Below are positions 6,458-50,540 of a stretch of 64,000 nt of DNA, piece by piece (within the stretch, counting starts at the first letter, position 1; each line of letters starts with the position of its first letter). This stretch comes from Steinernema hermaphroditum (Eukaryota > Nematoda > Chromadorea > Rhabditida > Steinernematidae), in NCBI GenBank assembly GCA_030435675.1, contig CM059624.1, positions 12,300,769 to 12,364,768 on the forward strand, in the 5' to 3' direction. The notes under the pieces were generated by a model that saw only the letters and a list, made by a program, of their open reading frames with translations, was not told the origin of the DNA and searched no databases. The position numbers and the translations under genes were made by a program.

Positions 6458-6986
6458 TAGATCTGCCACAACTCGATCAAACTACAGTAATTCTCAAGGC
6501 ACCCAAGTCAGAGCCAACAGCCAACTTTTATGGAAAAGGTGTCCGTGCAAGTTCCTTGACCCGGAAAAGATTATCGAGTCGAGCCATAGTTAAGAAACCT
6601 GAAAGAATGCATTTTAGAAGCAGAGCATTTTCGATTTTTTGGAATGACTGCGCAAAGAGGGTAAGCAATCCTAAGGGGTTACTGCAGATAGAGTAATATA
6701 CATAAGTACGAGTAAGCTAGAGTAAGTGTCTGGCCTCTGAATATACCCTCCAAGTAACAATGCACCGGTTTTTGAATGTCTAAAGTAGGGCCTGTGGGGC
6801 ATATGCCTGCGTATCTGCCTACAGTGTTAGAGCAATTTCGAAATCCAAACGAGTCCGAGTCTCGAGTCCGGTCACACGGAGATCACACGTCTAGACACTT
6901 CTCATACTTTTCTGCCGGTGCAAGATGACGCCTGTGCAACGAGACTGTTGGGGACAACAGATAACACGCCGTCCAATGAAGCCGCT

Positions 6987-7082
6987 GGTTCAATTACCCA
7001 AGTTTGAGGTAAACATTAGATCCGCTCTTTCAAATGGAAGTGGTGAGACAAATTTTGGAACTGCGTCTCTTCGGAGATGCTT
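6987..7082 (+). ncRNA. sls-1: SL1 spliced-leader RNA, variant leader
   Basis: The first 22 bases match the nematode SL1 leader except for C instead of T at position 4 (GGTTCAATTACCC...TTTGAG). The leader is followed at once by a GT donor (GTAAACATTA). Downstream are a stem-loop (CCGCT...AGTGG), an Sm-type site AAATTTTGGAA, and a terminal hairpin GCGTCTC-TTCG-GAGATGC. This is the expected order for an SL RNA of about 100 nt. SL RNA donates its leader to the 5' end of mRNAs by trans-splicing. The base change lies in the leader, so use of this copy would be visible on mRNAs. Confidence 0.9.
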
Positions 7083-7406
7083 ATAAATCATAGCCATGCT
7101 ACTTCTACCGGAATGTCTGGTCAGTCGTAGTCTATTCTCATGCATAGGTTGAATGTCTGAAATCTGACCATAACTCAATGAGCGTGCAAGTACCCTCACA
7201 CCGCTTATCGAATGTCTAGAACGGTGATATGCCTCTGGAAGTGTCTACAGTAACTGTCTAGTATTTGTCTAGAACGGTGATATGCCTCTGGAAGTGTCTA
7301 CAGTATCTGTCTAGATTCTGTCTATGCTTCTATGCCGATGTCAGATCACGCCTGTGCAGCGAAATTGTTGGGAGTGGCAGATAACCTGCTGTACAATGCT
7401 GTCTTC

Positions 7407-7502
7407 GGTTTAATTACCCAAGTTTGAGGTATACATTACATCCGCTCTTTCAAATGGAAGTGGTGAAACAAATTTTGGAATTGCGTCTCTTTGGAGATGC
7501 TC
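7407..7502 (+). ncRNA. sls-1: SL1 spliced-leader RNA, canonical leader
   Basis: The leader exon at 7407-7428 is identical to the conserved nematode SL1 leader (GGTTTAATTACCC...TTTGAG) and is followed by the donor GTATACATTA. The middle stem-loop, the Sm-type site AAATTTTGGAA and the 3' hairpin GCGTCTC-TTTG-GAGATGC are all present. It lies 420 bases after the variant copy on the same strand. Upstream bases conserved between the two copies probably include the proximal promoter element. Its presence agrees with the many splice acceptors found just before start codons in this window. Confidence 0.95.
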
Positions 7503-7572
7503 ATAAATCAAGGCCATGCTACATCGAACGGAAAGACTGATCAATGCCAGTCTATTCACAAGCATAAAGTGA

Positions 7573-7640
7573 GTGGCTTATCGATGTTCAGATCGGTATG
7601 GAAGGCTCGAAGCCAGTGGAAGAAGATCTCCTCGAACCAT
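7573..7640 (+). pseudogene. Inverted fragment of the adjacent gustatory-receptor gene
   Basis: About 70 bases on the plus strand (GGCTTATCGATGTTCAGATC ... AGCCAGTGGAAGAAGATCTC) match the intron 4/exon 5 junction of the receptor gene at 8082-9666, which is on the minus strand. The match includes the acceptor and the start of exon 5 with a few mismatches. It is embedded in the spacer after the second SL1 gene, replacing part of the repeat unit. It cannot be translated usefully. Confidence 0.65.
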
Positions 7641-47552: not shown

Positions 47553-48783
47553 TTAACGTCGTCGATTAGCTTTATAAGGATTCGTCGTCGACATTGTTTG
47601 GGTCGTAACATTGGAAACAGCCGGCTGGATATGGGTAATCGAGATGCGGAAAGGGATCGCCAGCATCAGAGCCCTTCTATATGCAGTGAAAGCGACAAAC
47701 GTCGAAATCGTCAGAATCGGAACTCGTGCCTAAAGATAACGTTTTGAGCGCCAGAACCGCTAACGAACTTACATAAGTGGCGTACCGGTAAGCCTGGGTT
47801 GTTATGGCTCCCGTGACAACGAGCGGATTGTCAAGCGTTCTAATTTCTATGGGGGTTGCCGCCATCGCTAGCATAACGCCTTGCATCACCTGCTGGAGAA
47901 CGACGATGATGTTGGGCATGGTGGCGTAGACGATGACGGAAACGAGCTGTCGTCGATGTTTTTTTCCAGCATTGGTCATTCTATTGGCCCCGTTGGCATA
48001 TAGGAGTATGACAATAATGGACTAAAAGACCGTAGTTGCAATGAGAAAAGCTCGCCTACCAAGATGTAGAAGAGTATCAAGAGGAAAGTGCATGTGGAAC
48101 CGATGACATGTATAGAGAGGTACCAAACATCGACTAAGGTCGGGTCGAGCTCATAAGCGACAGTGACCATCGTCTGGATGTTGTTGTACAGCATATTTAA
48201 GACGACGAAGATGACGCCTCCCAGATAGAGACGGCTCCGCTTCCTGAAGATGTTTTTGGACAATCTGACCACAGAACGATGCATACTTTGTGTGAAACAG
48301 CCTCTGCGATGTGAAAGGGAACGTGTAGGACATGAAGGTGGCCACAAGCATTAGAAGACACAGTATCTTGTAGACGTTGACGGCAATGTCGTTGAAGATC
48401 TTTCCGATCATTTGGATTATATCACAACTGCAGAATCGACCCTTTGGGAAAAGAAGAAGGCACTTACTAGTCTCGGTAGTAGTGCCCAGTTGAGTCGACA
48501 AGGCGAAAAATCTGCAGCATAGAGATGACTATCTGAACACAGTCAGCCGGGGCGGTCATGGAATAGAGCCAAAGCACGTAGAGTCGACTCATGTCGTTCC
48601 GACTGATTTTCGAGGAAATGAACACCACAAAGGCGACATTGATGAGATTGAAGGTAGAGATACTGATCTGTAGAGGGGGGTTGTCCGAAAAGATGTCTAA
48701 ACTGACATTGGAAAAAGCCATTTGTGAGTTGACCTACTTTTTGCGGCTACCAACCGGCTACCGTTCACTGACGTGAGCTTCAT
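47553..48783 (-). CDS. Serpentine receptor SR3 (7TM, family unassigned)
   Basis: Six exons (48783-48738, 48696-48468, 48427-48287, 48243-48060, 48021-47773, 47729-47553) give 341 residues. Exon 2 reads NIFSDNPPLQISISTFNL through RLVDSTGHYYRD. Exon 3 has the DIIQMIGKIFNDIA segment and TFMSYTFPFTS. Exon 5 has KHRRQLVSVIVYATMPNIIV, and exon 6 ARVPILTISTFVAFTAYRR. The exon phases (1, 2, 2, 0, 0) equal those of the other copies. A TTTTTTCAG acceptor is 5 bases before the ATG. Exon 4 is shorter than in SR1/SR2 (184 against 205 nt), matching the SR4/SR5 type more closely. Confidence 0.78.
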
Positions 48784-49071: not shown

Positions 49072-50540
49072 TTAACTGTTAACTGTTTATTCCGAATCAG
49101 AATTATTACAATTCGCGGATCCCATTTCCAACCATTGGTGCAGCTGCATTCTTCTCGCATGGGTCTGCCACGTGTGTGACCTCGTCGCCTTCTTGAATTC
49201 GTCTCGCCATCTGGTTCGGGGTCTGCCAAGAGGTCTTCTTGTGGGTGGTCTCCATTCGGCGATCTTCCTGGACCATTTCATTTCATCGTCATGTGCCATC
49301 TTTCACGCGTACGTCCATTTTCGCTTCATCGCTGCTTCAGTGATGTCCATCACCTTCGTGACGCCTCGGAGCCAGTTGTTGGTCCTCCTGTCTAACAGAC
49401 GCACTCCGACCATTCTGCGCTCCATCCGTCGTTGAGCGGTTGCAAGTTTCTTCCTCGCTGACTTCGTGAGAGACCAGGTTTCGGATCCGTACAGCATAGC
49501 GGGAAGGACGCACATGCTGAAAAGACGTCGTTTCCATCGCATATTGACGGTCCGGCTGGTTAGAAAGTCCTTGTGCTGTCTGAAGGCGTTCCATCCGCTC
49601 TGGACTCGTCGACTGATCTCCCTCGAGTGGTCCCGTAGCAGGCGGACTTCTTGGCCCAGGTAGATGAAAGATTCCACCTGGTCGACTTCTCTTCCGTTGA
49701 GCAGAATCGTGGCTTCTTCCGTCGTCATCATCTTCGTCTTCCTGGCGTTGATCTTCAGCCCGATTCGGCGGGATGCCTCATCCAATTCGTCGAGCATCTT
49801 TTGCAACTCTTGCGCGTTGTCAGCAATGAGGGCGACGTCGTCGGCGAACCGCAAATTGGAGAGGCGGCTTCCGTTGATGTTGATTCCAACGTCGTCCCAT
49901 TGCAGCTGGCGGAATACGTGCTCCAGAGTTGCTGTAAACAGCTTTGGACTAATGGTGTCACCTTGTCGCACTCCGCGTCTGATTTCGATCGGCACCAGTC
50001 GGTCAGCGATATTGATGAGCGATCTGGCTTCGCTGTAAATCTTCTGCAGGAGCTTGATGATCTGTGCCGGGACTCCTTGCTGCTGGATAGCATTCCACAC
50101 TGCATTCGTCTCCACGCTGTCGAACGCCTTCTCGTAATCGACGAAAAGAATGAAGAGCGGGAGCCGATATTCGCGCGATCGCTCCACAAGTTCGTTGACT
50201 GCATGCAGGTGGTCGGTGGTGGAGAAGTTCTTCCGGAAACCTGCTTGCTCCACTGGTTGCTCCGAGTCCAGAACTCGCTCTATGCGCTGATTGAGCACTT
50301 TCGTGAGCAACTTGTAAACGCAGGAAAGGAGCGAGATCGGCCGGTAGTTCTGCAGGTCCAGCGGGTCATCTTTCTTGAAGAGGAGGATCGTCGACGAATC
50401 ACCCATTTTCTTCGGCATCGAGATAGTTTGCAGGCAGGCGTTAAACAGCTTCGTCAATTCCGGCACCAGCACATCTTTTCCTAATTTCATCATTTCCACG
50501 GTGATGTTGTCGATTCCGGGCGCTGTTCTGTTTTTCATCT
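49072..50540 (-). mobile_element. RTE-type non-LTR retrotransposon, 5'-truncated
   Basis: The minus strand encodes about 410 residues of reverse transcriptase. It starts within the domain at NRTAPGIDNITVEMMKLG and includes LLFKKDDPLDLQNYRPISLL, AGFRKNFSTTDHL, the active-site block RFADDVALIA and the RTE C-terminal segment WLRGVTKVMDITEAAMKRKW. The endonuclease and 5' part are absent. An in-frame TGA at 49303-49305 interrupts the C-terminus; the frame then continues (KWSRKIAEWRPPTRRPLGRP) to about 49087. The 3' end has AATAAA and a short TTAACAG repeat, as usual for RTE. An 11-bp target-site duplication, AAGGAACGCTG, flanks it (49061-49071 and 50541-50551). The copy is dead but fairly young. 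Confidence 0.93.

Follow-up and report, generated by a model that had tools for sequence, protein, structure and literature searches.

The stretch of DNA analyzed here, the window, comprises 64,000 nucleotides of the Steinernema hermaphroditum genome and contains exactly two matches to the SL1 leader at up to three mismatches, at positions 6987–7008 and 7407–7428; 100 shuffles gave none. Each match begins an SL1 RNA gene on the plus strand, copy 1 at 6987–7085, with its 3’ end placed from the terminal hairpin, and copy 2 at 7407–7505. The 22-nt leader of copy 2 is the exact canonical sequence, GGTTTAATTACCCAAGTTTGAG, and that of copy 1, GGTTCAATTACCCAAGTTTGAG, differs by one base, a C at 6991. 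Both leaders are followed by a GT splice donor (7009–7010 and 7429–7430), an Sm-type site, AAATTTTGG (7050–7058 and 7470–7478), and an intact 3’ hairpin of seven pairs (7063–7080 and 7483–7500). A conserved upstream block spans -56 to -35 of each gene (cctgtgcaacgagactgttggg at 6931–6952 in copy 1; 7351–7372 in copy 2), and its position presumably resembles that of a proximal sequence element. An earlier note on this DNA had described a tandem pair of SL1 RNA genes that both retain donor, Sm-type site and 3’ hairpin, and every one of these features was found in place. The note had also reported a variant leader in the first copy; the T-to-C change is there, at leader position 5 rather than position 4.

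Alignment to the Rfam SL1 model (RF00198) extended over the whole length of both copies and agrees with this assignment. The scores, 30.2 and 29.2 bits, lie below the model’s gathering cut-off of 75 bits and were seen at a relaxed threshold only; at gathering scores, the window gave no match to Rfam. Divergence from the model in the central part of the RNA accounts for the shortfall. Two SL1 copies in a ribosomal repeat unit on contig C7 also fell under the cut-off (36.9 and 35.4 bits), and the low scores seem to stem from a model built on other species, which fits the SL1 genes of this genome poorly in general.

ARAGORN found no tRNA in the window. On the minus strand, a 411-residue open frame at 49303–50538 has, judged by eye, the look of a non-LTR element reverse transcriptase. 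Several mutually similar open frames between 43200 and 62600, also on the minus strand and judged by eye, look like membrane proteins and are perhaps a receptor gene cluster; a Pfam search of one piece of these frames (47677–48021) gave no match.

The earlier note had proposed a genome scan for more SL1 units, and such units proved abundant. A 34-letter pattern from the SL1 RNA body, allowed up to three mismatches, matched 165 places in the 90.65 Mb of sequence searched (60 contigs), two of them the window genes, and the reversed control matched none. One hundred of the 165 matches were listed, all exact, with two on contig C1, 53 on C2, one on C3, 12 on C4 and 32 on C7. Our gene set comprised all 68 genes listed for contigs other than C7, one adjoining gene and the C7 copies within the stretches fetched, giving 73 distinct sequences from -60 to +100. 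Canonical leaders begin 62 of these genes, two begin with the GGTTC form that carries C at position 5, and nine have other or disrupted starts. The pair in the window is thus real and consists of mostly ordinary members of a large SL1 gene family. On C2, between 15.33 and 16.34 Mb, SL1 genes form a cluster with nine divergent pairs among the matches listed, their leaders 217–255 bp apart, laid out as if each pair shared a two-way promoter.

A tree of 70 genes, from which the broken L069, L080 and L125 were excluded, placed both window genes in a clade of nine rows from contig C4 (support 100/98). Long branches converge on the junction between this clade and most other genes, which makes placement beyond the clade unsafe. 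The end branches of copy 1 and copy 2 measured 0.45 and 0.12, and those of the four genes in the other two C4 pairs ranged from 0 to 0.056.

Those two tandem pairs have a spacing of 367 bp. In the window, the tandem units lie at 6889–7158 and 7309–7578 on the plus strand, share 79% identity over 270 nt, and are 420 bp apart, as the earlier note had stated. That spacing does not define a repeat type of its own. Alignment with the other two pairs resolved it into the 367-bp unit plus a 53-bp tandem duplication at 7213–7324, between the window genes, which both other pairs lack.

When 11 genes were folded, eight shared three stems, an open Sm site and a leader paired over positions 1–14, with position 5 opposite position 32. 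Unconstrained folds differed for both window copies and for the second GGTTC gene; because these folds pair differently from those of the canonical genes, an open Sm site in the window copies is not predicted by energy alone. All 14 pairs of stem I, the leader stem, are formed in 61 of the 71 other genes, and each window copy retains 13 of them. Copy 1 is broken at 5–32 (C-A), where the C at 6991 faces position 32 (7018), and copy 2 at 4–33 (U-C), owing to C33 at 7439; copy 2 also carries T26 at 7432. Further bases that set the window RNAs apart from other copies are T58, present in both, and A61 in copy 2. The second GGTTC gene is broken at 5–32 (C-U) and at 8–29. Compensation of C5 within stem I was considered and rejected, since position 32 is not G in either C5 gene. 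The nine pairs of stem II are complete in both window copies (intact in 72 of 73 genes), as are the seven of the 3’ hairpin (intact in 64 of 73). Hairpin pair 82–89 is U-A in 61 genes, C-G in five, U-G in four and non-standard in three, and these matching base changes support the hairpin as a conserved structure.

Upstream of the leader, SL1 genes have in common the block at about -56 to -35 as well as a pre-start sequence that ends in TCGTC. Both window copies kept the block, a putative promoter element. In the other two C4 pairs, the four genes have TATCGTC, TATCGTT or TGTCGTC before the start, and copy 2 has TGTCTTC, which resembles several other genes. Copy 1 has AGCCGCT (6980–6986), set against T at -2 in 94% and C at -1 in 93% of the 71 others.

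The exact GGTTC leader occurs at three places genome-wide, only two of which are SL RNA genes: copy 1 and a gene at C4:13,044,580. The third place, C3:16491248 (L031), lies within an LTR-like copy. The gene at C4:13,044,580 has an intact upstream region. In its downstream partner about 38 nt are missing, among them the donor and stem II; this decayed partner indicates that the gene was once also paired. A clear sister relationship between the two C5 genes was not supported by the tree, and because flank distances do not single them out either, their shared descent is unproven.

The earlier note had suggested that the variant leader might mark a subset of transcripts. That C5 occurs in two C4 pairs, each time in the first gene and in one of them with the upstream region intact, speaks for a live SL1 variant serving its own mRNAs, as does the use of many leader variants by Aphelenchus avenae, described in an excerpt of PMC2825203. 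We nevertheless regard a dedicated role as improbable, and the suggestion as unsupported: the exact leader is confined to two SL RNA genes, the leader stem is broken without compensation in both (C5 opposite A32 and U32), and the start region is altered in the window copy. Most likely, C5 is a rare form of the leader, little used and with no special role.

Comparison with the majority of four C4 relatives gave a measure of how the two genes have aged. In copy 1, 2 of 98 RNA positions were changed, set against 33 of 206 flanking positions (P 0.00017); in copy 2, the counts were 7 of 98 and 28 of 142 (P 0.0085). The RNA parts, being less diverged than their flanks, were held back, either by selection or by gene conversion. 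At RNA positions with at least 90% agreement, copy 1 departs twice, and 28 of the 71 other genes depart at least twice; copy 2 departs six times, exceeding 66 of the 71 others, with more departures in five. The RNA of copy 2 is thus unusually worn and that of copy 1 is not.

These data bear on whether the pair is alive. The earlier note held that both copies could be active, a view that the low RNA divergence favors and that the broken stem I pair in each copy, together with the lost pre-start sequence and the long end branch of copy 1, weakens. The broken pairs and the lost pre-start sequence also speak for a reading in which both copies are dead, untranscribed pseudogenes; 23 of 79 upstream sites have changed in copy 1, and some C4 relatives are plainly decayed (a remnant adjoins L033, and the leader of L069 is disrupted). 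We consider this unlikely. In both copies the RNA has changed less than its flanks, the donor, Sm site, stem II and 3’ hairpin are intact, and copy 2 kept its upstream block. The lower divergence of the RNA argues against long-dead copies, although it could alternatively come from gene conversion by other copies, and a single broken stem pair may be harmless, as at least one break also occurs in 10 of the 71 other genes. Both window genes were probably functional for much of their history.

The interpretation we favor, with somewhat better than even confidence, is that the pair is an old tandem duplicate within a small, dispersed, 5S-free SL1 subfamily on C4, a contig of chromosome size, and that its members are now minor, slightly worn genes. 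The anatomy of each gene can be read directly in the window; transcription, snRNP assembly and trans-splicing are extrapolated from the known SL1 family. Each gene would use an upstream block centered near -45, a start at the leader, a donor after 22 nt, an Sm site and a 3’ hairpin to yield an RNA of about 100 nt, whose leader would be donated to mRNAs by trans-splicing. The C4 subfamily probably kept working through most of its history, and both window copies now appear slightly worn. In copy 1 the wear would consist of the broken leader-stem pair and the altered start region, and in copy 2 of the broken leader-stem pair and an altered base adjoining the donor; for copy 1 the case for wear is weakened because its RNA departures are ordinary. 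Alongside the C7 and C2 copies, which are more numerous, the two genes would contribute a minor share of leader at most.

The absence of 5S rDNA at the pair, reported in the earlier note, was upheld. No 5S gene was found in the window at the Rfam cut-off. Genome-wide we counted at least 43 5S matches, 36 on C7 and seven elsewhere, and among these the nearest on C4, at 9,502,045 and 14,945,825, lie more than 2.5 Mb from the pair. The note’s general contrast with the interleaved SL1 and 5S genes of C. elegans did not hold, as the C7 repeat of this same genome has SL1 interleaved with 5S. The C7 5S genes mostly form pairs about 1,488 bp apart with a period of about 9.9 kb, and in the C7 stretches fetched, SL1 genes occur in pairs 475 bp apart. 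An Rfam scan of one unit (L054, C7:7000–16999) placed 18S rRNA on the same strand as U2, with two 5S genes and two SL1 genes facing the other way, in the order 5S, (U2), SL1, SL1, 5S. The 18S and U2 content rests on this single unit, which reads N in part, and the 18S match may be incomplete. Three of four motifs of large-subunit and 5.8S rRNA had no match in this unit, a negative that carries no weight because of the N positions; the fourth had a single match at up to three edits on the strand opposite 18S, which we took as chance. A damaged SL1 gene on C3 (L068, C3:4003214–4003814) sits within a few hundred bases of the 5S gene at C3:4003116, the two being perhaps a stray fragment of the ribosomal repeat.

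This genome carries both SL1 arrangements, 5S-linked and 5S-free. Its SL1 genes are found in several settings: a 5S-bearing ribosomal repeat, a cluster that includes divergent pairs, and a 5S-free offshoot that is apparently wearing out. Linkage to 5S is therefore a poor guide to which SL1 copies matter. Two by-products of the survey, the joining of SL1, 5S, 18S and U2 in one repeat and the SL1 leaders within LTRs, are more interesting than the pair itself, and the exact leader in LTRs of both the Gypsy and BEL/Pao types is the most surprising.

The leader core AATTACCCAAGTTTGAGGT, with up to one mismatch, occurs at 339 places in the genome. The 100 core matches listed were all exact; 33 of these are in the list of exact SL RNA bodies and 67 are outside it. 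Some of the latter are interspersed with the C2 genes and probably represent SL genes whose bodies carry mismatches. On C1, among the matches listed, 21 of 23 cores are not SL genes, ruling out that every leader match is an SL RNA gene, and 20 of these 21 are similar beyond the leader to another copy, L018 being the one that is not. We found exact or near-exact SL1 leaders in LTRs or LTR-like copies at loci L001–L017, L021–L031 and L056–L067, with domains tested in seven. Several of the leader families have LTR anatomy, with TGT...ACA ends, purine tracts before the 3’ copies, TGG... after the 5’ copies, and paired copies kilobases apart. Open frames beside L004 and L005 match DUF7083, aspartyl protease, Integrase_H2C2 and rve domains, a set that we take to be Gypsy-type; those beside L011, L012, L014, L059 and L062 match DUF1759, DUF5641 and Peptidase_A17, which we take to be BEL/Pao-type domains.

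In a typical LTR the leader lies directly behind a TATAAA-like box, with about 80–130 nt from its start to the LTR end; the box is usual across the copies, and the next dinucleotide is mostly GT, or AT in some families. A strict GT after the leader was ruled out, as a non-G base follows 12 exact leaders, all similar across the leader to another copy. The motif before the leader is alike between Gypsy and BEL/Pao elements, and a shared module may therefore have moved between the superfamilies rather than arisen twice. Given that 21 of the 23 C1 cores lie outside SL RNA genes, the window leaders might themselves belong to a retrotransposon LTR. This is extremely improbable and already refuted by the complete SL RNA body and SL gene upstream region of both window copies; further, neither window leader has a TATAAA-like box right before it, and most LTR copies read have one. 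What follows concerns the leader and not the window pair.

Across 11 LTR representatives, identity was 98% in the leader, 51% in the preceding 26 nt and 27–36% further out, a comparison biased by the choice of representatives on the leader itself. A less biased test took LTR sequence of two families that excluded the leader, and covered those parts of C1 and C2 for which the core listing was complete. The exact core was present in 24 of 27 full-length matches, compared with 17.7 expected under ordinary decay (P 0.0006), and in 7 of 10 copies below 98% identity (P 0.007), both statistics being drawn from copies that are not independent. Below 92% identity, neither of the two full-length copies had the core. 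Eleven partial matches were excluded from the test; the core is in place in three of them and, in a fourth, lies 18 nt off the expected place. One more short LTR piece on C1, outside the test, had no core nearby among the matches listed.

We tentatively propose, at a little less than even confidence, that the SL1 leader may be more than the exon of SL RNA genes and may have been taken up as a working cis element of Gypsy and BEL/Pao LTRs, so that element transcripts would begin with the host’s leader or be started by it. If so, the use of the host’s trans-splicing leader by mobile elements could be tested here. The exact SL1 leader in nematode LTRs went unmentioned in the titles and opening lines of abstracts among the open-licence PMC matches listed, which leaves its novelty unproven. 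Related observations appear in excerpts of published studies. In flatworms, 597 discarded loci that carried partial leaders were tied to mobile elements, LTR and LINE for the most part, and such loci were explained by trans-splicing of element RNAs (PMC12582326). SL1 was found at 180 loci in Heterodera glycines, 22 of them near an Sm motif (PMC6362198), and spliced mRNA of the C. elegans element Cer1 was found with and without SL1 (PMC3315495).

The window genes resemble known nematode SL1 RNA genes (RF00198; C. elegans sls-1) in their 22-nt leader, GT donor, Sm-type site, 3’ hairpin and RNA of about 100 nt, and differ in an RNA middle that deviates from the model and in having no 5S found beside the locus. 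With respect to the C. elegans type of SL1 repeat, in which 5S is part of the unit, the C7 array has this arrangement and the window pair does not.

Further comparisons draw on excerpts of the cited studies. The mRNAs of Aphelenchus avenae carry 12 leader sequences, four of them SL2-like, and its SL1b is, like the C5 leader, an SL1 leader with a single changed base, there used on mRNA (PMC2825203). The C5 leader is absent from those 12 as given in the excerpt. MelSat01 of Meloidogyne (Mi-SL1b) likewise consists of tandem SL1 units in which the SL part is less variable than the remainder of the repeat (PMC9673304); it is a satellite there, and the window holds two units. As in Oscheius tipulae, where 5S and SL1 genes are unclustered (PMC8022731), the window pair stands apart from 5S, and as in Pristionchus pacificus, with at least 619 (PMC7986045), SL1 RNA genes are very numerous. 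Unlike in either species, 5S-free SL1 genes coexist here with SL1 genes in a 5S-bearing repeat, one read unit of which also carries 18S and U2.
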